IMG/VR virus record: IMGVR_UViG_3300046665_000238
Coordinates: 1-42,459 of that record
Origin: a virus
Strand: one strand, 5' to 3'
DNA length: 42,459 bases
Positions 16,513 through 42,459 of this stretch are shown here, piece after piece. Numbering within the stretch: the first letter of the stretch is position 1; every line of letters begins with the position of its first letter. The notes under the pieces are model-generated. The model was not told the origin of the DNA. It saw nothing but the letters and a program-made list of their open reading frames with translations, and did not search any database. Both the position numbers and the translations under genes were made by a program.

Positions 16513-17601
16513 ATGGGAACAATCACAACTCGAACCCGCAGCGACAAGAGTATAGGTTACACCGCGCAGATTCGTCTGAAGCGTGGCGGCAAGGTCATCC
16601 ACACTGAGGCCAAGACCTTCGACCGCAGGCCCGCCGCAGAAGCGTGGATGACGAAGCGGGAGCGCGAACTTGCGCAGCCTGGCGCACTGGAAACCATAAG
16701 CCAGAACGATCCGACGCTCGCCGACGTGATCGACCGGTACGTCAGGGAGTCGCGCCGCGAACTCGGGCGTACGAAAGCGCAGGTGCTACAGACGATCTCC
16801 GTAGCACCGATCGGCGGCCGGAATTGCTCCGAAATCACCAGCTCGGTCATCGTCGAATTCGCGCACGGCCTAGGCGTGCAGCCGCAGACGGTCGGCAATT
16901 ACATTTCGCATCTGGCATCAGTCTTCGTCGTCGCTCGGCCGGCGTGGGGCTATCCGCTCGACATGAAGGCGATGCAAGACGCGCGTGTCGTGCTGAAGAA
17001 ACTCGGATCGGTCAGTAAGTCGAAAAAGCGCGATCGTCGTCCGACTGTCGACGAGTTAGACCGTCTGATGAAATACTTCCAGAAGTCGCGAGCCGCCCGC
17101 GGTGACACAGTGCCGATGATGGCGATGGTTGCGATGACGCTGTTCTCGATGCGCCGCGAGGAAGAGATTTGTCGGATCGAATGGAAGGATCTCGACGAGG
17201 AAGGATGCCGCGTCATGGTGCGCGACCTGAAACACCCAGGCGAGAAGCAGGGCAACGACCAATGGTGCGACCTGACGCCCGAGGCGCTGCGCGTTGTTAT
17301 GGCTCAACCGCGTACAGAGAAACGGATCTTCCCGCACAAAGCGCGCTCGGTCAGTTCGGCTTTCACGCGCGCGGTGCAGGTTATTGGGATAGACGACCTG
17401 CACATGAACGATCTGCGCCATGAAGGCGCGAGCAGGCTGACAGAGATGGGGTGGAGCATTCAGCGTGTAGCGGCCGTGACAGGGCACCGCAGTTGGGCGA
17501 CCCTCAAGCGCTACACGCATCATCGGCAGGTAGGAGACAAATGGGCTGACTGGCAATGGCTCGACGTGATCGCAGCGCCTCAGACGACGCCGGCAAGCTG
17601 A
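16513..17601 (+). CDS. int: Tyrosine recombinase, phage integrase
   Basis: A 362-residue integrase. Residues 1-60 form the arm-binding N-terminal beta domain, 65-165 the core-binding SAM-like domain, and 175-340 the catalytic domain. Visible catalytic residues are Arg214 (SMRREEE), Lys240 (DLKHPG), Arg302 (NDLRHEG), His325 (TGHRSW) and Tyr334 (KRYTHH). The usual His of the HxxR box is Asn299, an uncommon change. The LRHEGASRL wording resembles Rci-type and many prophage integrases. The start has TGAGGAAAC upstream. The 3' end overlaps the opposing PrtN-like gene by 22 bases. The GGTGCTAC palindrome covers the likely promoter (TACGAT), which suggests self-regulation. Confidence 0.95.
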   Translation: MGTITTRTRSDKSIGYTAQIRLKRGGKVIHTEAKTFDRRPAAEAWMTKRERELAQPGALETISQNDPTLADVIDRYVRESRRELGRTKAQVLQTISVAPIGGRNCSEITSSVIVEFAHGLGVQPQTVGNYISHLASVFVVARPAWGYPLDMKAMQDARVVLKKLGSVSKSKKRDRRPTVDELDRLMKYFQKSRAARGDTVPMMAMVAMTLFSMRREEEICRIEWKDLDEEGCRVMVRDLKHPGEKQGNDQWCDLTPEALRVVMAQPRTEKRIFPHKARSVSSAFTRAVQVIGIDDLHMNDLRHEGASRLTEMGWSIQRVAAVTGHRSWATLKRYTHHRQVGDKWADWQWLDVIAAPQTTPAS

Positions 17602-20649: not shown

Positions 20650-20733
20650 CTATAACTGCGCTCGATCGTGTGTGAAGAAGGCGGCCACGCGCAGATGCGG
20701 GCGTAATAACGCGAATATCGTGTAGTTGGTCAT
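20650..20733 (-). CDS. Leader peptide behind promoter P1 (27 residues)
   Basis: A 27-residue frame starting at ATG 20733 with GGAAGGAA seven bases upstream, one of the best ribosome sites in the region. The peptide (MTNYTIFALLRPHLRVAAFF...) has no recognised relative. Its DNA resembles the beginning of the gene behind promoter P2: both have the same ribosome site and a TTATTACGC stretch near codon 10. It may be a regulatory leader or the remains of a duplicated gene start. Confidence 0.5.
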   Translation of the reverse strand: MTNYTIFALLRPHLRVAAFFTHDRAQL

Positions 20734-20784
20734 GCTGGTTTCCTTCCGTTCGTTGTTTTAGTGGGTGATCCTGTTACGGGATTA

Positions 20785-20813
20785 AAGATACCGTAATCGT
20801 ATCTATCCCGCAA
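20785..20813 (-). promoter_or_regulatory. Promoter P1 with dyad operator in the spacer
   Basis: Minus strand: -35 TTGCGG (20813-20808), 17-base spacer, -10 TATCTT (20790-20785). The dyad GATACGATTACGGTATC fills the spacer and overlaps the -10. Same build as P2 (27134-27162) and P4 (33520-33548). It would drive the leader and the genes from 20.7 to 17.6 kb. Confidence 0.72.
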
Positions 20814-23806: not shown

Positions 23807-24301
23807 CTAGCGGATGTCGAGTCGTTGGCCGCGCACTAGGCGGCAGCCGGGCACTTCGAAGCCGTCTTTCAGGGCGGCGGCGATCAGCTTCTTGTCGGGC
23901 GCAGGGGCGGGCGGAAGCGGCTCCGTCTTGTATGCGGCCGGGATCATCGACTCGTCGTCGATTGCAACGCTAGGCGGGTTCAGCGCGATCTTGATCTTGA
24001 AGAACGGCGTTTCGATCTTGTCGCGGCCGGCCAAGGTGAGCCCGTCCATCAGGTACTTGCGGATACGCTCAGCCCGGTTTTCCATCGCCTTCGCGCGCTC
24101 GACCATGGCCTTTGCGTGCGCCTTGATCTGCTCGGCCGTCGCTTCGAGGTTGCGCGCGACGAATGCCGTGTTCATCGCCTTCGTTTCCAGATCGCCGCTG
24201 ATCGCTTCCAGCGTGTCGCAGAACGTCTGATCGTCCAATTCCAGGTCTTCGAGCTTCGCCGCGTCTGCGCGGTACTCGGCGGCTACTTGAAACAGGTTCA
24301 T
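23807..24301 (-). CDS. Gp157-family phage protein
   Basis: A 164-residue protein of the Siphovirus Gp157 family. Residues 15-110 are a long coiled coil (AKAMVERAKAMENRAERIRKYL), then a beta part with FFKIKIALNPPSVAI, and the ending DKKLIAAALKDGFEVPGCRL with LVRGQRLDIR, which is diagnostic. The family is linked by experiments in other phages to resistance or recombination-related roles, but its action is unsettled. It lies in the recombination block between SSB and the methyltransferase. AAGGAAC precedes the start. Confidence 0.88.
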   Translation of the reverse strand: MNLFQVAAEYRADAAKLEDLELDDQTFCDTLEAISGDLETKAMNTAFVARNLEATAEQIKAHAKAMVERAKAMENRAERIRKYLMDGLTLAGRDKIETPFFKIKIALNPPSVAIDDESMIPAAYKTEPLPPAPAPDKKLIAAALKDGFEVPGCRLVRGQRLDIR

Positions 24302-24375
24302 GTCGGTTCCTTTGTGTTCCGATTGTCGTATCGGTTATCAAATAATAGCGCGAAATACTCCTGCCATAGTATCCG

Positions 24376-25177: not shown

Positions 25178-25627
25178 CTAGAACGGAATGTCGTCGTCCA
25201 TTTCGTCGAAGCCTTTGCTACCGCCGTACTGATCGCCTGCCGGCGCAGGGGCTTGCTGCTTCTTTTCCGGCTTCGCTTGTTGCGATCCTTCTGCCCGGCC
25301 GCCGAGCATCTGCAACTGGTCGACGTTCACCTCGACGGAATACTTGTCGGCGCCGGCCTGGTCCGTCCACTTGCGCGTTCGGATGCGTCCCTCGATGTAG
25401 ACCGAAGATCCTTTCTTGAGGTAGTCGGCCGCGACCTGTGCGAGACGTCCGAACAGGTTGCAGCGGTGCCATTCGGTGTGCTCCTTCACCTCGCCGGACG
25501 CCTTGTCCTTCCACTTTTCGGTGGTGGCGACGCGCAGGTTTGCAACGGCATCGCCGCTCGGCAGGTAGCGCACTTCGGGATCGGCGCCAAGGTTGCCGAT
25601 GATGGTGAGTTTGTTGACGGATGCCAT
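25178..25627 (-). CDS. ssb: Single-stranded DNA-binding protein
   Basis: A 149-residue SSB with the bacterial OB fold: [55 protein letters not shown], and [15 protein letters not shown] Gln/Pro/Ala linker leads to the acidic tip DEMDDDIPF, the tail that recruits partner enzymes. It probably serves phage replication and works with NinB and the Sak4-like ATPase encoded next to it. The start follows the ATPase stop after three bases. Confidence 0.96.
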
Positions 25628-25630
25628 TAG

Positions 25631-26548
25631 TTATGCTCCTGCGGTTTCGGGTGCTTTTTGCTCGGCGAGTTTTGCCGCGCGCGCTGCTTCGCGCGCTGCC
25701 TTGTACGCCTCGATGGATTGGTTTGCTTCTTCGACCTTGCTGCGCAGCAGATCGCCGACACTGGCGATGGCGAACTTCTCGCAGAACTTCTGAGCGGGAA
25801 GCCCCGCCTCGGCCATCGTCGACAGCAAGTCGTCGCGCTCTGCGGTCGATACCTTCTGCGGCTGTTCCTCGCCCGATTCGAGCCACGCCAGCAACTCGGC
25901 GCCGGTTTCCTGGCTGACCTTGAAGTAGCGTCCGTCGAACAGGGAAGTGCGGTCTTTGCTTGCGCTGGCGACGTGCGCCATGTCGATGTCGAGCATCACA
26001 GTGAATTCGTATTCCATGCCGTCGCGCTGAACCGGTGCGAGCCCGACCTTCTTCGGCGTCTGCTTGCCGCGGTCGTTCGTTTCGAGCACGTATTCCTGCT
26101 TGGCGCGCATCGTCGCGATGATGTGGCAGGGGCTCTTGAGCATCGCCTCGACGAGCGAGTTGTGCTCGGGCGTGATGGTGCGCCACGCCGCGAACCCGTT
26201 CGCCTTGCCGCTGTCGGCGATCTTGCCTTGCTTGTCGAGCAGGCCGCCGTCGCCGGCCCATGCGTGCGTCAGGCTGTCGATGATGATCGTCGTGTATCCT
26301 GCGGCCTCGAATGCCTTGATGGCTTGCAGGTACTTCGGCACGGTGTACGGCGCCTCGATTGCGATGATGTCGTAGTCGCCGAGGTCCGCGTACAGATCAG
26401 CAGAGCCGTGTTCGGTGTCAATGACGCCGACCTTCCCGCCAATCCCGAAGGCCAAGAGCAGTGCGGAATACGTCTTGCCCGCTCCGCTCGGTGCTGCGAT
26501 GCCGAGCCTGAGTTTCGCCTTCTTGCGCTGCGCTTTCCGGATTTCCAT
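25631..26548 (-). CDS. Sak4-type RecA-fold ATPase (recombination)
   Basis: A 305-residue ATPase. I set the start at ATG 26548 (MEIRKAQRKKAKLRLG) with GGGAG upstream; the open frame reaches 26596. Walker A APSGAGKT is at 19-26, Walker B TTIIIDSLTHAW near 85-95, and the RecA-like core ends about residue 205; a helical, Ala-rich C-terminus follows. Sak4-like proteins are single-strand annealing recombinases that need SSB, and ssb lies directly downstream. An AAA_24 label would describe the same fold. The upstream small frame 26418-26627 overlaps its 5' end. Confidence 0.85.
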   Translation of the reverse strand: MEIRKAQRKKAKLRLGIAAPSGAGKTYSALLLAFGIGGKVGVIDTEHGSADLYADLGDYDIIAIEAPYTVPKYLQAIKAFEAAGYTTIIIDSLTHAWAGDGGLLDKQGKIADSGKANGFAAWRTITPEHNSLVEAMLKSPCHIIATMRAKQEYVLETNDRGKQTPKKVGLAPVQRDGMEYEFTVMLDIDMAHVASASKDRTSLFDGRYFKVSQETGAELLAWLESGEEQPQKVSTAERDDLLSTMAEAGLPAQKFCEKFAIASVGDLLRSKVEEANQSIEAYKAAREAARAAKLAEQKAPETAGA

Positions 26549-26627
26549 GGTGCTTCTCCCGTTGGTCAAGTTCGTACTGCTGTTGCTCGTCTTCATGCTG
26601 CTGTTGAATCCACTCGGCGCCGCTCAT
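26418..26627 (-). CDS. Possible small acidic/Gln-rich protein overlapping the Sak4-like gene
   Basis: A 69-residue frame starting MSGAEWIQQQHEDEQQQYEL, on an ATGA junction with the preceding mini-gene. The first 27 residues look like a real charged helical phage peptide; the rest is read out of frame over the first 131 bases of the Sak4-like gene. Either a truly overlapping gene, or a translational bridge to the ATPase start. Moderate to low support. Confidence 0.38.
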   Translation of the reverse strand: MSGAEWIQQQHEDEQQQYELDQREKHHGNPESAAQEGETQARHRSTERSGQDVFRTALGLRDWREGRRH

Positions 26628-26716
26628 GACAGCAGCCTCACGTTCTCGTAGGCGGCCCAGGCACTCGCGCCGAAGCAGATCACGGCGGCGACGCACCAAT
26701 CAATTACGGTTTTCAT
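26624..26716 (-). CDS. Thirty-residue membrane peptide
   Basis: Starts MKTVIDWCVAAVICFGASAW, a single hydrophobic segment, and ends AAYENVRLLS. The start lies inside the last codons of the upstream gene (17-base overlap) and the stop overlaps the next ATG. Such mini membrane proteins are common in phage early operons. No function known. Confidence 0.5.
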   Translation of the reverse strand: MKTVIDWCVAAVICFGASAWAAYENVRLLS

Positions 26717-27089
26717 GGCTGATCTCGTCGATTTCGTCGCGTAGGACTCGCGCACGGTTGACCAGAAGGGCAAGCCAGCCATCGGCGGCGGCTTCGGGGA
26801 ACTTGGCCGCGAACACGTTCCACTCAAGATCAAGGTTCATCAGAAGGGCGTACATGTCCGCGGTCTTTTCGGCGATCCGCATCTGCTTGTGGATCTCGAC
26901 CAGCTCGACGACGGGGCACAGGTGCTCGTCGCCAGCCTTGCGAAGTTCGGTCATGAAAACCGACTGGGGAATGCTTACAATCATAGGATCACTCACAGGC
27001 AAATTTTTACGCGCAACAGGGGCCTGTTGCGGGCGAAAACCTGCGGTGAAGCGTAATAAGCCAATGCGGGCTAGGGTTTGCGGGTTCAT
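26700..27089 (-). CDS. First gene behind promoter P2, function unknown
   Basis: A 129-residue protein from ATG 27089, which has GGAAGGAA seven bases upstream. Residues 1-35 (MNPQTLARIGLLRFTAGFRP) resemble the P1 leader peptide in position and DNA; residues 36 on (MIVSIPQSVF ... HKQMRIAEKTADMYALLMNL) look like the folded protein, helical throughout. A perfect 8-base inverted repeat (GCAACAGG, 27013-27030) lies in the leader-like part and could form an RNA hairpin ahead of the internal ATG 26984. So either one gene or a leader fused to a gene. Confidence 0.6.
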   Translation of the reverse strand: MNPQTLARIGLLRFTAGFRPQQAPVARKNLPVSDPMIVSIPQSVFMTELRKAGDEHLCPVVELVEIHKQMRIAEKTADMYALLMNLDLEWNVFAAKFPEAAADGWLALLVNRARVLRDEIDEISHENRN

Positions 27090-27133
27090 CGTGTTTTCCT
27101 TCCTTCGTTGTGGTTGTGTGTTGCGATGACTGA

Positions 27134-27162
27134 AGGATACGACAACGGTATCGTAAACGCAA
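27134..27162 (-). promoter_or_regulatory. Promoter P2 with dyad operator in the spacer
   Basis: Minus strand: -35 TTGCGT (27162-27157), 17-base spacer, -10 TATCCT (27139-27134). The dyad, read on the plus strand, is GATACGACAACGGTATC. It matches P1's dyad in 15 of 17 positions. It would drive the recombination block from 27.1 kb leftward. Confidence 0.75.
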
Positions 27163-28811: not shown

Positions 28812-28828
28812 GATACGATCAGTGTATC
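28812..28828. promoter_or_regulatory. Fourth GATAC-type dyad operator
   Basis: GATACGATCAGTGTATC, the same GATAC-N7-GTATC dyad as in P1, P2 and P4, in a 160-base gap between the 84-residue gene and the leader at 28719. A TATCTC lies at the -10 position on the minus strand, but the TTGCG -35 is missing (GCCCAC there), so it may be an operator without its own strong promoter. Confidence 0.6.
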
Positions 28829-31236: not shown

Positions 31237-31488
31237 TTATCCCCGCCCCGTGCCTGTGATGTGCGCAGGGACGTCGCCCATGCGCAGCAAGTCGACGACG
31301 GTCATCGGCTCATCGCTCTCGCTAATCACTTCGGCGCTGGCTTTCGCCAGTTCGAGCGCACGGTAAGAGCTGACCGTGCAATGCATGTTCTTGATGTTGC
31401 GCCAGTAGATCAGGCTGATGCCGACCTTCTCGCACACGTCGCGAACAGCCTTCTTGCCGTACTTCTTGGAAAATTCGTCTGCCGTCAT
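31237..31488 (-). CDS. Cro-like helix-turn-helix protein
   Basis: An 83-residue protein at the head of the leftward operon. Residues 5-45 (FSKKYGKKAVRDVCEKVGIS, then YWRNIKNMHCTVSSYRALEL) form a helix-turn-helix of the type used by phage and plasmid antirepressors. It diverges from the CI-like gene across a 287-base regulatory gap and has its own sigma-70-type promoter. GGAG precedes the start. Its position makes it the probable Cro; a YdaS-like role is an alternative. Confidence 0.72.
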   Translation of the reverse strand: MTADEFSKKYGKKAVRDVCEKVGISLIYWRNIKNMHCTVSSYRALELAKASAEVISESDEPMTVVDLLRMGDVPAHITGTGRG

Positions 31489-31710: not shown

Positions 31711-31775
31711 TACACAGAAAGTGCGCAAAGCACACGCCGGCCATATCTCTGACCCGCGAAAACATAGGAACCGAA

Positions 31776-32222
31776 ATGTCTGTTGAGACCATCGAGCAAG
31801 TACGGACCCGCAACTTCCTCTGGCTATTCGAGCGCTTCAAGGAAGAGGTGCGCAATGATTGGCCCGGTGAACCCGACCGAGGCATGGTCAGACGCTTTGC
31901 GCAGCGCCTGGGGATCAGCCCCATCTACACGTCGCAGATCAAGAATGGGAAGGTGATCGGGACAGCTCTGGCAGACAAGATAGAGAAGGCTCTCGGCCTT
32001 CAGGACGGCTGGCTCGACACGGACCACACCAAGTCCATCCCGGCTGAAGACGAAGACCTTGCAGCGGCTATGGACGCGTTCCGTGGCATGTATGAGCACT
32101 CGCCCGAAGCGACGCGCGCCGCGCTCGTTAAGGTCATGGGCGCCATCGTCACCGGAAAGCCGATAGAAAGCATCGTCGAAAAGAAGGATGAAAAAGTTAC
32201 CGAAGCCAAAAACGCAAGGTAA
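31776..32222 (+). CDS. CI-like repressor without protease domain
   Basis: A 148-residue protein. Residues 10-85 contain an XRE helix-turn-helix (MVRRFAQRLGISPIYTSQIK, ADKIEKALGLQDGWLD), the GW(L)D ending being typical of prophage repressors. The C-terminal 60 residues are helical and charged (MDAFRGMYEHSPEATRAALV) with no Ser/Lys self-cleavage domain. So RecA-driven self-cleavage, as in lambda CI, is not expected; induction must work through another protein. AGGAACCGAA precedes the start. It diverges from the cro-like gene. Confidence 0.78.
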   Translation: MSVETIEQVRTRNFLWLFERFKEEVRNDWPGEPDRGMVRRFAQRLGISPIYTSQIKNGKVIGTALADKIEKALGLQDGWLDTDHTKSIPAEDEDLAAAMDAFRGMYEHSPEATRAALVKVMGAIVTGKPIESIVEKKDEKVTEAKNAR

Positions 32223-32358: not shown

Positions 32359-32571
32359 ATGACCGGTATTCAAGAGTCGTCCAGCGAGAATGGCATTACT
32401 CTGCCTGCTCCGCTGGCGGGGGACTTATCGTCGGAGTGGTCCGATAGCGACGTTCTGAGAGCCGTCGTGCGGGCGCTTTCTCCGGCCAGGCGGCGGGAGG
32501 TTTTGGCCGAAGTTCGGGCTGAACTTGGCATCTGCACAAATGATACTGTCAATGTCGCCTTCAACGCTTGA
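32359..32571 (+). CDS. Small protein downstream of the repressor, function unknown
   Basis: A 70-residue protein with an acidic N-terminus and a basic helix (DVLRAVVRALSPARRREVLA), ending EVRAELGICTNDTVN and AFNA. AGGCAGGG precedes the ATG. It is transcribed with or just after the CI-like gene. No recognised family; a co-regulator is possible. Its stop overlaps the -35 of the small-RNA promoter. Confidence 0.55.
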   Translation: MTGIQESSSENGITLPAPLAGDLSSEWSDSDVLRAVVRALSPARRREVLAEVRAELGICTNDTVNVAFNA

Positions 32572-32596
32572 CGATCCTGTTATAGTTTGCGATAAT
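32568..32596 (+). promoter_or_regulatory. Strong promoter of the candidate small RNA
   Basis: TTGACG (32568-32573), 17-base spacer, GATAAT (32591-32596). A CGATA-N7-TATCG dyad (32590-32606) covers the -10 and the expected start, suggesting control. No open frame follows before two terminators. Confidence 0.68.
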
Positions 32597-32602
32597 TTGT
32601 CT

Positions 32603-32685
32603 ATCGTAGAGTTCGTGTGACTCAACGGTTCCTTCCAGTGATCTAGCGATCACTTTCGCTCGCCGCAAGGCTTGAGCGTTTTTTA
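32603..32685 (+). ncRNA. Candidate phage small RNA (about 80 nt)
   Basis: Predicted start near 32603 from the promoter just upstream, end in the T run at 32679-32684. Elements in order: a weak hairpin GAGT-N7-ACTC, an unpaired stretch containing TTCCTTCC (32629-32636), a perfect hairpin AGTGATCTAGCGATCACT (32637-32654), and the terminator hairpin with GCC-GCAA-GGC. No plausible ORF. The single-stranded UUCCUUCC is complementary to GGAAGGAA, the ribosome site of the P1 leader and of the first P2 gene. A small RNA that controls early gene translation is a reasonable hypothesis; no family is recognised. Confidence 0.5.
32657..32685 (+). terminator. Intrinsic terminator of the small RNA
   Basis: CGCTC pairs with GAGCG and GCC with GGC across a GCAA loop, followed by TTTTTT. 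Ends rightward transcription from the repressor side. Confidence 0.85.
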
Positions 32686-32692
32686 TTCTAAG

Positions 32693-32725
32693 GCCGTCGC
32701 CCGTTAGATCGTGCGGCGGCTTTTT
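32693..32725 (+). terminator. Second intrinsic terminator
   Basis: GCCGTCGC pairs with GCGGCGGC (one T-G pair) over a 12-base loop, followed by TTTTT. A backup stop behind the first. Confidence 0.75.
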
Positions 32726-32731
32726 GCTTAT

Positions 32732-32815
32732 GTGTGGCTGGCTGGTGCTCACTCCGCTCAGCGGGGATCGACGTTCGATTCGTCGGGTACAGCGGGTTCG
32801 ACTCCCGGGCCACTC
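32732..32815 (+). other. tRNA-like or tmRNA-end-like sequence
   Basis: An 84-base stretch with tRNA-like parts: ends GTGTGGC / GCCACTC pair at six of seven positions; GCTG/CAGC could be a D stem; CGACG-TTCGATT-CGTCG is a perfect five-pair stem with a seven-base loop reading CGA; and GCGGGTTCGACTCCCG is a T-arm of the kind seen in tRNAs and at the 3' end of tmRNA. But the D region is too long, the first T-stem pair is wrong, and CCA is absent. So a decayed tRNA, a tRNA mimic, or a fragment picked up from an attachment site. Not a safe tRNA call. Confidence 0.3.
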
Positions 32816-32871
32816 CCTTGTACTGCCGCTGGAGTCCCCCGCTCCTGGCCGCCGAGAAGTTTCGGCACCAA

Positions 32872-32897
32872 CAAAAAAGCCCGCTCGATGGCGGGCC
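32872..32897 (-). terminator. Intrinsic terminator of the leftward two-gene unit
   Basis: On the minus strand GCCCGC and GCGGGC pair over a six-base loop, followed by TTTTTT. It ends the P4 transcript 20 bases after the 119-residue gene. Confidence 0.85.
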
Positions 32898-32917
32898 GTA
32901 TCGTGCGACACATTGCC

Positions 32918-33277
32918 TCAGTGTTCTGAATCGCGCTCCAGGCGCTCGATGTACTTGATCGCTTCCGTCTCGCTGTCTTCGGTGATCCAGCAGGAGACAA
33001 GGGCGCTCAGTACGCCGAACGCTGAGTACGGATCGCGCTTCTGGATGGCGTCGCGCACGTTCTTGCACAGCGTAGTGCCGGACGCGCTCTGAAGGGCGCA
33101 GACGAGATCCTCGTCGGACAGCGCGGCCATACGCGACGCGATCAGTGCTGCTTGCTTGTCGGCGATCATCTCGTCGCGCAGCTCGTCTTGATAGACCGCT
33201 TCGTCGCGGCGGGACAGAGCGCGGTCGAACATGAATTCGCCGGACTGCGTGACGTTGATCGGGGTAACGCTGCTCAT
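32918..33277 (-). CDS. Small protein of the P4 unit, function unknown
   Basis: A 119-residue protein from ATG 33277 with AAGGAGACCAAC upstream; the longer frame is a shadow. It is mostly helical and charged (RRDEAVYQDELRDEMIADKQ, SRMAALSDEDLVCALQSASG) and ends KYIERLERDSEH. A GCCCGC hairpin (33290-33305) lies just before the ribosome site. Together with the 53-residue gene it forms a short leftward operon that sits apart from the early operon, between the repressor and the late genes, a typical place for moron or control genes. Confidence 0.65.
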   Translation of the reverse strand: MSSVTPINVTQSGEFMFDRALSRRDEAVYQDELRDEMIADKQAALIASRMAALSDEDLVCALQSASGTTLCKNVRDAIQKRDPYSAFGVLSALVSCWITEDSETEAIKYIERLERDSEH

Positions 33278-33519: not shown

Positions 33520-33548
33520 AGGATACGATAGGAGTATCGGTTCCGCAA
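33520..33548 (-). promoter_or_regulatory. Promoter P4 with dyad operator in the spacer
   Basis: Minus strand: -35 TTGCGG (33548-33543), 17-base spacer, -10 TATCCT (33525-33520). Dyad on the plus strand GATACGATAGGAGTATC. Bases after the -10 (CAGTCAT) are the same as behind P2. Drives the 53- and 119-residue genes. Confidence 0.74.
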
Positions 33549-35231: not shown

Positions 35232-35666
35232 ATGGCACGACCGAGCAGTTACAAGGCAGAGTACGCCGAACAAGCGCGGAAGCTGTGTCTGCTCGGCGCG
35301 ACAGACAAGGAACTCGCCGATTTCTTCGAGGTGAGCGAGCAGACGGTGAACGCTTGGAAGTCAGCGCACGCTGAATTTCTTGAGTCCATAAAAAAGGGCA
35401 AGAGTCAAGCGGATTCAGAAGTCGCGGACAAGCTGTATCGCCGAGCATGTGGATACGAGCACCCTGAGATCGATCTGCGCGTAGTAGGTGGCGAGATCGT
35501 TGAGACGCCCATCACGAAGATATACGCGCCCGATACGGTGGCTGCGATCTTCTGGCTGAAGAACAGGCAGCGCGGCAAGTGGCGGGACAAGATCGAGCAG
35601 GAAGTGACGGGCGCAGACGGTGGGCCGATCAGCCACAACCACACGATTGAGTTCGTGAAGCCATGA
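35232..35666 (+). CDS. terS: Terminase small subunit
   Basis: A 144-residue protein with an N-terminal helix-turn-helix (KLCLLGATDKELADFFEVSE, QTVNAWKSAHAEF), a charged central part for ring assembly, and a tail (YAPDTVAAIFWLKNRQRGKW) that is typical of PBSX-like small terminases. It recognises the packaging site on phage DNA and hands it to TerL, whose gene overlaps its end by four bases. Length is normal. Confidence 0.88.
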   Translation: MARPSSYKAEYAEQARKLCLLGATDKELADFFEVSEQTVNAWKSAHAEFLESIKKGKSQADSEVADKLYRRACGYEHPEIDLRVVGGEIVETPITKIYAPDTVAAIFWLKNRQRGKWRDKIEQEVTGADGGPISHNHTIEFVKP

Positions 35667-36910
35667 CGATCAAATTCCCCGAAGCGCTGTCGTTCCTGTT
35701 CGACAACGCGCCGTACAAGATCGCGCATGGCGGACGGGGAAGCGCAAAGAGTTGGTCATTCGCCCGGGCTCTGTTGCTGCTCGGCACGCAGAAGCCGATG
35801 CGCATCTTGTGCGCGCGTGAAGTGCAGAAGTCGATCGACGACTCTGTGCACATGCTGCTGAAAGACCAGATCCAGGCGCTAGGGCTCGGCGACTTCTATC
35901 AGGTGCTGCGCGATGAGATCCGCGGCAAGAACGGCACATCGTTCGTCTATTCAGGCTTGGCGCAGCACACGATCATGACTATCAAGTCATTTGAGGGCTG
36001 CGACGTCTGCTGGGTGGAAGAGGGGCAGGCGGTCAGTAAGCGATCGTGGGATGTGCTGCGCCCGACCATTCGTAAGCCGGGATCGGAAATCTGGATCAGC
36101 TTCAACCCGGAGTTGGAAACGGACGTCACGTATCAGATGTTCGTCGTCAACCCGCCGACCGGCGCGATTGTGCGTCAGGTGAATTACACGGACAACCCTT
36201 GGTTCACCGACAAGCTTGAGCAAGAGCGGCTTGACTGCATGCGCGATCAGCCGAGGGACTACGAGAACATTTGGCTCGGCAAGTGCAAGCCCGCTGTCGC
36301 CGGCGCGATCTATTACGACGAGGTTGCGAACGCTGAAGCCGCGGGCAGGCTCTGCAACGTGCCGTACGACCCGATGCTGAAGGTTCATATCGTGTTCGAC
36401 CTCGGCTGGAACGACGCAATGGCTATCAGCCTGATCCAGAAGAACGCGGCCGAGCTGCGCGTGATCGAGTACATCGAAGACAGTCACAAGACGCTCGACC
36501 ACTACTCGACCGTGCTGAAGGACAAGCGGCTGAATTGGGGCAAGGTCTATTTGCCGCATGACGGGCGCAACAAGGACTTCAAGACCGGCAAGAGCGCAGA
36601 GGAAATCATGCAGGCGTTCGGGTGGGACGTTGCCATCACGCCGAACATGAGCATCGAGGACGGAATCCGCCTTACTCGCATGACGTTCCCGCGCATGTAC
36701 TTCGACAAGACGGGCTGCGAACGCCTGATCCAGTGCGCGAAGCGTTACCGGCGCAGCATCAACCAGCAGACACAGGAGCCCGGCGCTCCGCTTCACGACG
36801 AGTGGAGCCACGGCGCTGACAACCTGCGATACATCGCAGTCAATGCCGAGGCAATGTCCAACGAGGATTGGGGCGGTTCGCTCTCTTATCCGCAACTGAA
36901 CTATGCATAA
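35663..36910 (+). CDS. terL: Terminase large subunit (PBSX-type)
   Basis: A 415-residue packaging motor. ATPase: Walker A GGRGSAKS at 23-30 and Walker B CDVCWVEE at 113-120 with Glu119/Glu120. Nuclease: Asp246 (VFDLGWND), Asp300 (LPHDGR) and Asp386 (HGADNLRY), the RNase H-like metal ligands. It pumps DNA into the prohead and makes the end cuts. Length and the ISFNPE motif fit the PBSX/Terminase_3 group. It lies between terS and the portal gene. Confidence 0.94.
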   Translation: MTIKFPEALSFLFDNAPYKIAHGGRGSAKSWSFARALLLLGTQKPMRILCAREVQKSIDDSVHMLLKDQIQALGLGDFYQVLRDEIRGKNGTSFVYSGLAQHTIMTIKSFEGCDVCWVEEGQAVSKRSWDVLRPTIRKPGSEIWISFNPELETDVTYQMFVVNPPTGAIVRQVNYTDNPWFTDKLEQERLDCMRDQPRDYENIWLGKCKPAVAGAIYYDEVANAEAAGRLCNVPYDPMLKVHIVFDLGWNDAMAISLIQKNAAELRVIEYIEDSHKTLDHYSTVLKDKRLNWGKVYLPHDGRNKDFKTGKSAEEIMQAFGWDVAITPNMSIEDGIRLTRMTFPRMYFDKTGCERLIQCAKRYRRSINQQTQEPGAPLHDEWSHGADNLRYIAVNAEAMSNEDWGGSLSYPQLNYA

Positions 36911-39214
36911 ATGACTGACAAACCCCGCAAGATCGACGATGACGAACTCGGAACCATCGTCGACACCGAGATTCGCCAGTCGATCGCCTACATGGGCGGG
37001 ACGCTGTCTGAAATGCGCCGCAAGGCTGAGTATTACTTTCTCGGCGAGGCAAAGGGCGACTTAGCCCCGCCTGCGATCGAGGGGCGCTCGGCTGTCGTGT
37101 CGACGGATGTGTCGGATACGGTGCTTTGGACGCTGCCGGCGCTGATGGAGATCTTCACGGCTGGCGACGATGTGGTCGAGTTCTGCGAGACGAACCCGCA
37201 GCATTGCGCCGAAGCTGAGCAGATGACGGACGTCTGCAACTACGTGTTCTATCAGCAAAATCCGGGATGGGAAATCCTCGAAAGCTGGTTCATGGACGCG
37301 CTGTTGCAGAAGAACGGCATACTGAAAGTGTGGTGGGATGACAGTATCGAGGAAGTGCGCGAGGAGTACACCGGCCTAACGATGGCCCAGGTGACGACGC
37401 TGCTTCAAGATCCCGAAGTCGAGCCGATCGAGCACAAGGAATACCCGGATCAGGATGCGCTGCAATCCATGCTGGTGCAATACCAAGCGCAGATGCAGCA
37501 GTATCAGGAAGCGGCGCAGTCCGGCCAGCTGAAGCAAGGCGTGCCGCCTCCGCAGCAGCCGGACCCGTCGCAAGTGCCGACGCTGCACGACGTGACGTGC
37601 AAGCGCTCGAAGAAGAAGGGGCGCGTGTGCATCGAGAACGTGCCGCCCGAAGAATTCATCATGTCGCGCCGCGGCAAGTCGATTGCCGATACGCCGTTCT
37701 GTGGTCATCACCTGCCGCGCACGCTGTCACAGCTGCGCGCACAGGGCTATGAGAACGTCGACGACATCAGTTCCGACTGGAATGGCGACCTGAACGGCGA
37801 GCGGCTGGAACGCTGGTCGTATGACGACGACATGGCCTATACGGGCGAGGGTGGCGAGATCAGCAACGATCCGTCACAGCGCATCGTGTGGATCACGGAA
37901 TGCTACTTGCAGTGCGACTATGACGGCGACGGCATTGCGGAATGGCGCAAGGTGGTGCGCGGTGGCGGCGTTACTCTGGCTAACGAGGAATGCGATGGGC
38001 CGCCGTTCGTCAGCATCACGCCTGTTCGTCTGCCTCACCGCTTCTTTGGCCGCTCGCTGGCTGATCTGTCGATGCCTTCGCAGAGGACCAGAACGGCGCT
38101 GATCCGTGGTCTGCTGGACAACATGTACTTGCAGATCAACGGCCGCACGTGGGCTGTTACCGATCAGGTCAATCTAGACGATCTGCTGACGAATCGCCCG
38201 GGCGGCGTCGTGCGCGTGAAGAATCCGCAGGCTGTCGGCCCGCTTCAACAGGGCATGGCAGATTCTGCCGGCGCCTATCAACTGCTGGAATACGTCGACG
38301 CGATGAAGCAGGACGCGACCGGCGTCACGAAGTACACGCAGGGTAGCGACGCCGACACGCTGAACAAGACGAAGGGCGGGCTGGAAAACATCACGCAGCG
38401 CGCAGACATGCGCGTCAAGCTGATCGCGCGTCGCTTCGCTGAAACCGGCATGAAGGACTTGTTCAGGCTGATTCAGAAGCTTCTGAGCCAGTACCAAGAC
38501 AAGGCCATGACGATCAAGCTGCGCGACGAATGGGTCGATGTTGACCCGCGCGCGTGGCGCAATCGGTACGACATGACGGTCAATGTCGGTCTCGGCACTG
38601 GCGACAAGACGCAGGTTGTCCAAAAGCACATGACGATCGGCACGATGCAGGCGCAGGGCTTGCAGATCGGAATCGCCACGCCGCAGAACATCTACGCGAA
38701 CGCGGTGAAGGCAACGAAGGCACTCGGCGAGAAGAATGCGGAAGCGTTCTGGACGGACCCGAGCAAGCAGCCGCCGAAGCCAGAGCAGCCGCCGATCGAG
38801 TTGCAGAAGATCCAAGCGCAGTCGCAGGCGGACGCACAGCTTGAGCAGCAGCGCCATCAGCAGGAACTTGAGCGCACGCAGAGCCAACAGCAGGTCGAGG
38901 CGTTCAAAGCGCATCTTGAGCAGCAGACGGCATTGCGCGAGCAGCAATTCCAGGCGATGCAGGCGGATCAAGAGAACCGTCTTGAGGCGCAACGCGATCT
39001 GGTGCGGGCACAGCTTGAGCAGGAGACGCAGCGCATGCAGATGGAGTTCGACGCGCAGATGGAGCAGATCAAGCAGTCTGTCTCGGTGCAGATCGCACAG
39101 ATCAACGCAGCGAACAAGCTCGAAGTGGCTGAAATGTCCGCGGCGACGACGTTGCAGAGCGCGCAAATCTCGGCAGCCAATGCCGCGGCATCAGATACCA
39201 GTGAGGCGGAATGA
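36911..39214 (+). CDS. Portal protein (SU10/P22-like)
   Basis: A 767-residue portal. The first 560 residues show portal features: RKAEYYFLGEAKGDLAPP, SAVVSTDVSDTVLWTLPALM, a clip/stem region, and DNMYLQINGRTWAVTDQVNL with TKYTQGSDADTLNKTKGG. The last 150 residues are a long Gln-rich coiled coil (QQRHQQELERTQSQQQVEAF), a barrel-like extension similar to P22's. It forms the dodecameric DNA gate of the head. It starts right after terL's stop and overlaps the next gene (ATGA). Confidence 0.88.
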   Translation: MTDKPRKIDDDELGTIVDTEIRQSIAYMGGTLSEMRRKAEYYFLGEAKGDLAPPAIEGRSAVVSTDVSDTVLWTLPALMEIFTAGDDVVEFCETNPQHCAEAEQMTDVCNYVFYQQNPGWEILESWFMDALLQKNGILKVWWDDSIEEVREEYTGLTMAQVTTLLQDPEVEPIEHKEYPDQDALQSMLVQYQAQMQQYQEAAQSGQLKQGVPPPQQPDPSQVPTLHDVTCKRSKKKGRVCIENVPPEEFIMSRRGKSIADTPFCGHHLPRTLSQLRAQGYENVDDISSDWNGDLNGERLERWSYDDDMAYTGEGGEISNDPSQRIVWITECYLQCDYDGDGIAEWRKVVRGGGVTLANEECDGPPFVSITPVRLPHRFFGRSLADLSMPSQRTRTALIRGLLDNMYLQINGRTWAVTDQVNLDDLLTNRPGGVVRVKNPQAVGPLQQGMADSAGAYQLLEYVDAMKQDATGVTKYTQGSDADTLNKTKGGLENITQRADMRVKLIARRFAETGMKDLFRLIQKLLSQYQDKAMTIKLRDEWVDVDPRAWRNRYDMTVNVGLGTGDKTQVVQKHMTIGTMQAQGLQIGIATPQNIYANAVKATKALGEKNAEAFWTDPSKQPPKPEQPPIELQKIQAQSQADAQLEQQRHQQELERTQSQQQVEAFKAHLEQQTALREQQFQAMQADQENRLEAQRDLVRAQLEQETQRMQMEFDAQMEQIKQSVSVQIAQINAANKLEVAEMSAATTLQSAQISAANAAASDTSEAE

Positions 39215-40778: not shown

Positions 40779-41717
40779 ATGACCGTACCCTCGAATACCT
40801 TCCAGACGTACCAAGCCATCGGCAACCGTGAAGACCTCACGGACGTCATCTACCGTATCGCGCCGACCGATACGCCCTTCATGTCCGGCATCGGCAAGGG
40901 CAAGGCGACGAACACGCTGCACGAATGGCAGACCCAAGACCTCGCATCGGCTGCCAACAACGCAGCGGTCGAAGGTGACGACGCTGCCGCTGCTGCCGTG
41001 ACGCCGACCGTTCGCCTGAACAACCGCACGCAGATCAGCACGAAGACGATCATCGTGTCGGGCACGCAACAATCGGGCATGGACCCGGCCGGCCGCAAGA
41101 ACGAACTCGCGTACCAACTGTCGCTCAAGGGCCTCGAACTCAAGCGCGACATGGAAACGGCGCTGACGCAGAACTCGACGACCGTTACCGGAACCGCTTC
41201 GGTTGCGCGTCAGCTGCGTGGCCTCGAAGGATGGGTTGCAACGAACAACGACCTCGGCGCGACCGGCGTGGCTCCGAACTACAACACGAACACGGCTGCT
41301 GTCGACGGCACCGCGCGCGCGTTCACCGAAGCGCAGCTGAAGAACGTGATTCAGTTGGCATGGGCGCAGGGTGGCAACCCTAACGTCATCATGCTTGGCG
41401 GCACGCAGAAGCAGACGTTCTCGACCTTCACCGGATCGTCGACCCGCTTCGACAAGGGCGAAGACAAGACCGTGACGGCTGCGGTCGACGTCTACATCAG
41501 CGACTTCGGCACGATCAAGGCTGTGCCGAACCGCTTCCAGCGCGCGCGTACCGCGTTCGTACTGGAACTCGGCCGCTGGAAAACGGCGTTCCTGCGTCCG
41601 ATGATGACGAACGAACTCGCCAAGACCGGCGACGCTGAGAGGCGCCAACTGCTCGTCGAGTACACGCTTGAGGCAGGCCAAGAGAAAGCAAGCGCTGCTG
41701 TGCGTGACCTTCTCTGA
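40779..41717 (+). CDS. Major capsid protein (SU10/DUF5309 family)
   Basis: A 312-residue capsid protein of the SU10-type HK97-fold group. The N-terminus NTFQTYQAIGNREDLTDVIY, then IAPTDTPFMSGIGKGKATNT and HEWQTQDLAS, is characteristic of the family. The middle has VSGTQQSGMDPAGRKNELAY, and the P-domain and A-domain end with GRWKTAFLRPMMTNELAKTG. It follows the scaffold gene and is followed by a terminator and a small probable decoration protein. The last 98 codons exist again, as a variant, at the left edge. Confidence 0.92.
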   Translation: MTVPSNTFQTYQAIGNREDLTDVIYRIAPTDTPFMSGIGKGKATNTLHEWQTQDLASAANNAAVEGDDAAAAAVTPTVRLNNRTQISTKTIIVSGTQQSGMDPAGRKNELAYQLSLKGLELKRDMETALTQNSTTVTGTASVARQLRGLEGWVATNNDLGATGVAPNYNTNTAAVDGTARAFTEAQLKNVIQLAWAQGGNPNVIMLGGTQKQTFSTFTGSSTRFDKGEDKTVTAAVDVYISDFGTIKAVPNRFQRARTAFVLELGRWKTAFLRPMMTNELAKTGDAERRQLLVEYTLEAGQEKASAAVRDLL

Positions 41718-41740
41718 TCTGACGTAGTTTCGTAGCAAAC

Positions 41741-41768
41741 AAGGGCGGCCTTCGGGTCGCCCTTTTTC
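41741..41768 (+). terminator. Intrinsic terminator after the major capsid gene, right copy
   Basis: Identical to the element at 323-350: eight-pair stem, TTCG loop, TTTTT. Its exact conservation between the two strain copies, while neighbours differ, supports function. Confidence 0.85.
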
Positions 41769-41781
41769 TTTGGGAAAGCCA

Positions 41782-42066
41782 ATGTCCAAGATGCAGATTT
41801 TCGCAACCGGCGTGACGATCACGACCGGCGCGGCGTCGGCGAGCGCGTCGATTCCGAACTGCGTGAACGGCACGAAACCGAAATACATCCGCGTGGCTGC
41901 CACTGCCGCGGCATACGTGAAGATGGGCGCGACTGCGGTCGCGGGCGACATCCTCATCCAGCCGGGCGATTCAGTCGTCTTGGCCGTCGCAGGAGCGCCG
42001 ACTATCGCCGCCATTCAAGTGTCGGCGGCCGGTCTGGTTCAAGTCTCGCCGCTTGAGGATAGCTGA
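41782..42066 (+). CDS. Probable capsid decoration/cement protein, right copy
   Basis: Encodes the same 94 residues as 364-648; the differences are silent. The three bases before the ATG read CCA here and TCC... there, just outside the ribosome site GGGAAAG. In an undivided genome this is the gene that follows the full capsid gene. See the left copy for features. Confidence 0.65.
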   Translation: MSKMQIFATGVTITTGAASASASIPNCVNGTKPKYIRVAATAAAYVKMGATAVAGDILIQPGDSVVLAVAGAPTIAAIQVSAAGLVQVSPLEDS

Positions 42067-42356
42067 TGCAAGTCGGCACTCGATTTCACTACATCCCGGA
42101 AACGGACACGACGGCCGTCGAGCGCATCCAAGACTGCGAACCCATTCTCGACACGACGACGGCTTTGCGCAATGAGGGCATCGTCGGCTCGAACGAGATG
42201 CGGCATGCAGCCACCTTCCCGGCCGTCGTGGTCGAGACGTACTGCAACACGCGCGGCATCACCTTCGCGGAATTCATGCAGAACACGGATCACGTCGCGG
42301 CCATGCTGCGCGATCCGGATCTGTCGGGCTTCCGCATCTGGACAGGACGCATCTAA
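42066..42356 (+). CDS. Conserved small head protein, right copy
   Basis: Encodes exactly the same 96 residues as 648-938 with about 11 silent base differences. TGATG junction with the preceding gene is kept. Confidence 0.7.
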   Translation: MQVGTRFHYIPETDTTAVERIQDCEPILDTTTALRNEGIVGSNEMRHAATFPAVVVETYCNTRGITFAEFMQNTDHVAAMLRDPDLSGFRIWTGRI

Positions 42357-42459
42357 ATGCCATTCGCATCCTATGACGACCTTCAGGCGTCGATCGGCCG
42401 TTGGCTGAAGCGCAACAACCTGCAAGACTCGGCGGCCGACTTCATCGCGCTCGCTGAAG
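42357..42459 (+). CDS. Head-tail adaptor protein, 5' fragment (right copy)
   Basis: First 34 codons of the adaptor gene, identical to 939-1041, cut by the window end. The full gene is at 939-1529. Confidence 0.8.
   Translation, partial: MPFASYDDLQASIGRWLKRNNLQDSAADFIALAE

Follow-up and report, generated by a model that had tools for sequence, protein, structure and literature searches.

The window, by which we mean the whole stretch of 42,459 nucleotides analysed here, is most of the genome of a temperate phage (IMG/VR record IMGVR_UViG_3300046665_000238), with genes for an integrase (16513–17601), a Terminase_3 large subunit (35663–36910), and a portal protein (36911–39214). Its first and last 1041 bases (1–1041 and 41419–42459) are 96.8% identical, which suggests that the contig wraps around a circular map and that the overlap includes a strain variant. 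The INPHARED phage collection held no close record for this phage. Its SSB resembles the SSBs of Burkholderiales plasmids (Caballeronia, Cupriavidus), with a Klebsiella plasmid ranking equally.

The preliminary description of this DNA had proposed a small RNA beside the immunity genes, and the location was right. A CI-like HTH repressor without a protease domain is encoded on the plus strand at 31776–32222 (PHROG transcription regulators, E-values down to 3.5e-08), and a small gene occupies the Cro position on the other strand (31237–31488); from 31488, this gene and the replication genes are oriented opposite to the repressor. An ORF of 70 amino acids (32359–32571, plus strand), conserved in position, separates the repressor from the putative RNA gene.

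The promoter, perfect hairpin, and strong terminator announced for this interval are all present at 32568–32684, and the interval contains no conserved ORF. The near-consensus promoter (32568–32596, plus strand) matches the consensus at 10 of 12 positions, with a −35 box TTGACG (32568–32573) that overlaps the 70-aa ORF at its stop codon, a 17-nt spacer, an extended TG, and a −10 box GATAAT (32591–32596); transcription is predicted to start at A32603. The predicted RNA of about 85 nt (32603–32687, plus strand), supported by its fold, homologues, and covariation, forms three hairpins (−28.0 kcal/mol, z = −3.2), and only 3 of 200 shuffled sequences folded as well. The 5′ hairpin (32603–32629), which the preliminary description did not list, varies in sequence and length among relatives. 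It is followed by a mostly single-stranded segment, GGTTCCTTCC (32627–32636), referred to below as the seed because it is complementary to ribosome-binding sites; no other part of the RNA is as well conserved as its core GGUUCCUUCC, which lies unpaired between hairpins 1 and 2. Hairpin 2, AGTGATC-TAGC-GATCACT (AGTGATCTAGCGATCACT), lies at 32637–32654, and the intrinsic terminator (32657–32684) consists of CGCTCGCC-GCAA-GGC-TT-GAGCG with a TT bulge (32657–32678) and a T run (32679–32684). The repressor operon ends at this terminator as well, and a second one, found in several relatives too, lies at about 32690–32723. As stated earlier, no family could be recognized: Rfam 15 gave no match to the RNA at gathering score, and a permissive scan of 32400–33000 returned nothing relevant.

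The CGATA-N7-TATCG dyad that had been taken as a sign of regulation does lie over the start (32590–32606), but among the relatives it occurs only in the near-identical L089; it is probably incidental, and we rejected it as an operator. A different dyad, GATAC-N7-GTATC, is likely the repressor operator, judging from its distribution: four exact copies (20787–20803, 27136–27152, 28812–28828, and 33522–33538) were found for 0.03 expected, and all precede minus-strand early genes. The promoter of the RNA contains no exact copy of it. Beyond the second terminator lies a tRNA-like sequence (32732–32815, plus strand) with CGACG-TTCGATT-CGTCG and GGGTTCGACTCCCGG arms; ARAGORN called no gene there, the Rfam tRNA-Sec model scored 21.3 bits (threshold 47), and the sequence is missing in L089.

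Conservation of the RNA in related phages

Relatives were collected in several ways. A terminase search gave L008, the neighbouring minus-strand protein (32918–33277), used as a query, gave L089, pattern scans added L099 and the L132/L140 group, and an aligned set of four repressors, likewise used as a query, returned 47 loci. Identity over the RNA region is 77% in L008 and 88% in L089. Most repressor loci with enough downstream sequence carry the same RNA 3′ of the same two genes, and the order repressor, ORF of about 70 amino acids, RNA is the same in over 20 related IMG/VR phages. A covariance model gave 37 matches, of which 24 were distinct; the matches in L019, L030, and L040 (E-values 0.03–0.32) were set aside as ordinary terminators preceding structural genes. 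Searches further afield added no case: a pattern scan of the genome collection for the RNA gave chance matches only, the model had no match in 399 genomes from the order to which G001 (Rhizobacter) belongs, which is uninformative, and three distant repressor relatives in that order lie at loci without the RNA.

The preliminary description had named covariation in related phages as a check, and the result, together with synteny in over 20 phages, supports its proposal. In the alignment of model matches, both partners have changed in 12 of the 16 pairs of hairpin 2 and the terminator, including all seven pairs of the hairpin 2 stem, and 97.6% of the alignment cells are paired in the terminator. 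The covariation score of 0.430 compares with 0.189 in shuffles and at most 0.125 with slid partners; it is somewhat favoured because the model was used to fit the alignment, but the stems are nonetheless visible by eye, hairpin 2 reading GTGATC/GATCAC, GACTC/GAGTC, GCTGTC/GACAGC, or GCTGC/GCAG in different phages. A promoter, recognized by consensus only, occupies the same place in all 20 distinct relatives (median 10 of 12 matches). In predicted folds of 20 relatives the seed is unpaired 75% on average, the folds of L200 and L206 differing from the others in having no open seed. On this comparative evidence, the predicted product of 32603–32687 is a real structured RNA.

Seed sequence and ribosome-binding sites of phage genes

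Within the window, perfect complements of 8–9 bp to the seed directly precede the start codons of four likely genes. The main site, GGAAGGAA (27096–27103, minus strand), is the ribosome-binding site of a gene for a 129-aa, all-helical protein (26700–27089, minus strand), which heads a gene set continuing with a recombination ATPase (25631–26596) and the SSB (25178–25627). This protein had no Pfam or PHROGs match, and a structure search with its model (pLDDT 75) yielded no fold match. Its promoter, TTGCGT-N17-TATCCT (27134–27162, minus strand), contains the GATAC-N7-GTATC dyad at 27136–27152. The second GGAAGGAA site (20740–20747, minus strand) precedes a 27-aa ORF (20650–20733) and lies 3′ of the dyad at 20787–20803. 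Possible further sites are AAGGAACCG (24304–24312, minus strand), before a Gp157-family gene (23807–24301), and, as a weaker candidate, AGGAACCG (31766–31773, plus strand), the ribosome-binding site of the repressor itself. The window offers pairing that is among the weakest of the family (8 bp, −13.2 kcal/mol, two sites), and, taken alone, it has a number of matching start regions that is only moderately unusual: P = 0.014 against flank-shuffled seeds, with as many start-region matches for 18% of other Shine–Dalgarno-centred 13-mers.

Both the 129-aa gene and the 27-aa ORF have a CA-rich stretch just 5′ of the paired site, and the leaders of the 129-aa gene contain on average 9.5 CAA/AAC/ACA triplets, compared with 1.0 in control start regions. 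These two leaders also share TTATTACG within the first codons (Leu TTA TTA Arg; 27052–27060 and 20702–20710, minus strand), although among sampled genes of this phage TTA accounts for 6 of 405 Leu codons; the motif is kept in nearly all 129-aa gene leaders seen. The 129-aa gene contains, within its first 30 codons (about 26990–27035, minus strand), a hairpin, GCAACAG-GCCC-CTGTTGC, followed by the conserved AAAAATTTG; by eye, the stem bases of this hairpin differ in the isolate prophages L192 and L193 and in L210 with pairing kept. In L206, L208, L266, and L270, an unrelated protein of 90–91 amino acids, which in L206 and L208 has a hydrophobic C-terminal segment, is joined to the leader of the 129-aa gene and its roughly 35 N-terminal residues. 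The leader thus appears modular, and because it and the first 35 or so codons are joined to different proteins, the constant target would be the leader rather than one protein.

The 129-aa gene was picked out by gene-cluster comparison and then fetched from other records. Among 14 distinct phages, the predicted pairing of the seed with its start region is on average stronger for cognate than for permuted combinations (means of −18.8 and −16.0 kcal/mol, respectively; P = 2e-5, a value that, like the other permutation P values, overstates independence because the phages share ancestry). The helices comprise 7–14 uninterrupted pairs and cover the Shine–Dalgarno sequence, with 0–4 nt between the end of the site and the start codon in most phages. 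The strongest single item for covariation between seed and target is the comparison of L205 with its sisters. Its seed reads CATTCC, against CTTCC in L195 and CTTCT in L194, and its first target reads GGAATG, against GGAAGG in both sisters; this G-to-T change is the sole difference from L195 between about 84 nt before the site and about 50 nt after it. The second target of L205 shows the same G-to-T change, plus one inserted base beside it. Since the change weakens the Shine–Dalgarno sequence, it is hard to explain other than by a joint change of seed and target.

Other branches display similar correspondences. The target CAGAAG of L181, L183, and L186 matches their seed CTTCTG; in L179, an extra T in the seed is accompanied by an extra A in the target, giving 14 consecutive pairs; and in L206 and L208, the seed GGTCTTTCCT goes with the target AGGAAAGGACC, with one bulged base. 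After removal of matches on the opposite strand of the RNA gene, GGAAGGAA was found before an ATG at least twice in each of the 12 records with a seed able to pair to it, and not at all in eight of nine records with another seed or without the RNA, the ninth (L261) having a single copy, apparently inside a gene; shared ancestry means that these counts are not independent either. The same filter eliminated an apparent second 14-bp target, CAGAAGGAACCGGG, in L181, L183, and L186, and several GGAAGGAACCG matches, which were the opposite strand of the RNA's own gene. One prediction failed: the GGAGTGGA sites expected from the seed of L191 (GGTTCCACTCC) are absent from its record. The L191 homologue of the 129-aa gene has no such leader and starts shortly after the upstream coding sequence, so that the seed may have drifted once the leader was lost, although this is a guess. 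Taken together, the aligned seeds and sites indicate that the two co-vary in evolution.

Proposed role and alternative explanations

These comparisons suggest that, in addition to the protein repressor, an RNA acts as a lock on phage genes. The explanation that we favour, and consider probable, is that a trans-acting RNA of about 85 nt from the immunity locus keeps early mRNAs of its own phage from being translated and thereby probably maintains lysogeny. The RNA would have a sigma-70-type promoter of its own, located where the repressor operon ends, and stop at the intrinsic terminator, and its seed core would pair with the Shine–Dalgarno region of between one and four mRNAs of early phage genes, chiefly the leader of the 129-aa gene and the similar leader at 20.7 kb, thereby preventing the start of translation. 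As both main leaders lie behind promoters with the GATAC-N7-GTATC dyad, they would be under two locks, one transcriptional and the other, exerted by the RNA, translational. The most likely use would be to keep untranslated both the early mRNA leaking from the prophage and the mRNA of an incoming identical phage. Transcription of the RNA, repression by pairing, help from Hfq or a similar chaperone, and action in lysogeny are all inferred.

The main alternative concerns the timing of action: the RNA might serve as a lytic-cycle timer, produced in the course of infection so that early genes are switched off once the phage has replicated, instead of holding lysogeny. The targets are indeed early genes, and a promoter without an exact GATAC-N7-GTATC operator may also work when no repressor is present. 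However, the RNA sits in the repressor operon, next to the repressor and the 70-aa ORF, in all readable relatives, and its strong, constitutive-looking promoter would also be active in the lysogen. Given this location and a promoter that lacks the operator dyad, the RNA is likely to be expressed in the lysogen, so that a second lock in lysogeny is favoured, and we regard a purely lytic timer as rather unlikely. A somewhat smaller chance is given to the repressor itself being the target, the RNA pairing with AGGAACCG and lowering repressor synthesis, either as feedback or in favour of lysis. The 8-bp match at this site is common to several relatives, others keeping the pairing through G-U, and over 18 phages cognate pairing exceeds permuted pairing (means of −12.6 and −11.5 kcal/mol, P = 0.007). 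Yet the site is much weaker than that of the 129-aa gene (mean −12.6 vs. −18.8), pairing is poor in L194, L195, and L205 (−6.5 to −7.3), and the L205 site is unchanged despite the altered seed. The repressor ribosome-binding site was therefore rejected as the main target, its pairing being weaker and missing from some members of the family.

The remaining two readings question the seed or the RNA as such. CCUUCC resembles the end of 16S rRNA, and the excess of matching start regions in the window alone is modest, as would be expected if the seed were merely anti-Shine–Dalgarno-like, its targets being unspecific or the real ones being host mRNAs. This is improbable in view of pairing that reaches past the Shine–Dalgarno core, up to 14 bp, of site variants distributed in line with seed variants, and of the move of both L205 targets to a poorer Shine–Dalgarno sequence (GGAATG) along with the seed. 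It is most improbable that the region is just the 3′ untranslated end of the repressor operon, with a promoter and a seed due to chance: the terminators do end that operon and promoter-like sites do arise by chance (four found in 5 kb for 1.8 expected), but promoter position, seed, and three-hairpin layout are kept over 20 divergent relatives, and seed and target covary.

The RNA might further be a second immunity determinant, whose specificity could change independently of the protein repressor, phages switching their immunity type through joint changes in the seed and all target ribosome-binding sites. L205 appears to have made such a switch relative to L195, the target 1 promoter sequences of the two being identical despite the change in seed and target; this extension is put forward tentatively, and we think it more doubtful than the lock itself.

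Comparison with known regulatory RNAs

The preliminary description had likened the RNA to lambda OOP and P22 sar, which holds as an analogy, but those RNAs are antisense and encoded opposite their targets, whereas here a short seed would act thousands of bases away. Lambda OOP RNA, about 80 nt in size, is antisense to cII; no such overlap exists at this locus, where the main targets lie 5–12 kb away and no conserved gene is found opposite the RNA. Like OOP, which influences the choice between lysis and lysogeny, it is a terminated RNA of the immunity region (PMC12197685). P22 sar represses ant at its ribosome-binding site, and thus is likewise a small immunity-linked phage RNA blocking a phage translation start in trans, an activity that here is predicted (PMC12197685; PMC10732415); unlike sar, which is antisense to a single target, our RNA would use a short seed on several distant leaders. 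The P4 CI RNA pairs with phage leaders and prevents expression of replication genes in the lysogen, and the two have in common their origin in an immunity region and their complementarity to stretches in leaders of their own phage (PMC4825925). However, the P4 CI RNA is processed from the operon that it controls and acts by transcription termination (PMC4825925), whereas the RNA described here has its own promoter and terminator, its target leaders are elsewhere, and its sites are ribosome-binding sites, suggesting an effect on translation instead.

The phage RNA 24B_1 of Phi24B, made as an 80-nt precursor, has also been proposed to favour lysogeny, in its case by lowering an antirepressor (PMC12197685; PMC10732415). 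It differs in acting as a processed molecule of 20 nt and in being encoded between lom and vb_24B_43, and these sources report no covariation between its seed and target. Outside phages, GcvB provides a parallel in that a single seed region acts on several mRNAs, either on the ribosome-binding site or close to it, and the target elements are CA-rich; such stretches enhance translation in GcvB targets (PMC3879156), and repeated ARN motifs bind Hfq (PMC4104026). GcvB, however, is chromosomal, regulates amino-acid transport genes, and has a GU-rich seed, whereas our candidate is a phage RNA and the CA-rich stretch lies just 5′ of its site. The predicted attributes (own promoter, intrinsic terminator with a U tail, and a single-stranded seed covarying with mRNA starts) are those of a trans-acting small RNA. 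In the open-licence literature, none of sar, OOP, P4 CI, and 24B_1 combines its own promoter, a short seed, several ribosome-binding sites of its own phage, and seed–target co-evolution.

Known immunity-linked phage RNAs are mostly single-target antisense RNAs, found one by one. If our interpretation is correct, a whole phage group would carry a conserved family of seed-type RNAs in its immunity locus, controlling a small regulon of the phage's own early genes with visible seed–target co-evolution. The system offers a direct and cheap way of testing if superinfection immunity can be set by RNA pairing, and the covariance model can be used to find more such RNAs. The more distant L212, L214, and L216, which the model does not match, have a promoter-like site and hairpins at the corresponding position, 3′ of the repressor and of the small ORF that follows it, possibly representing unrelated or diverged small RNAs.
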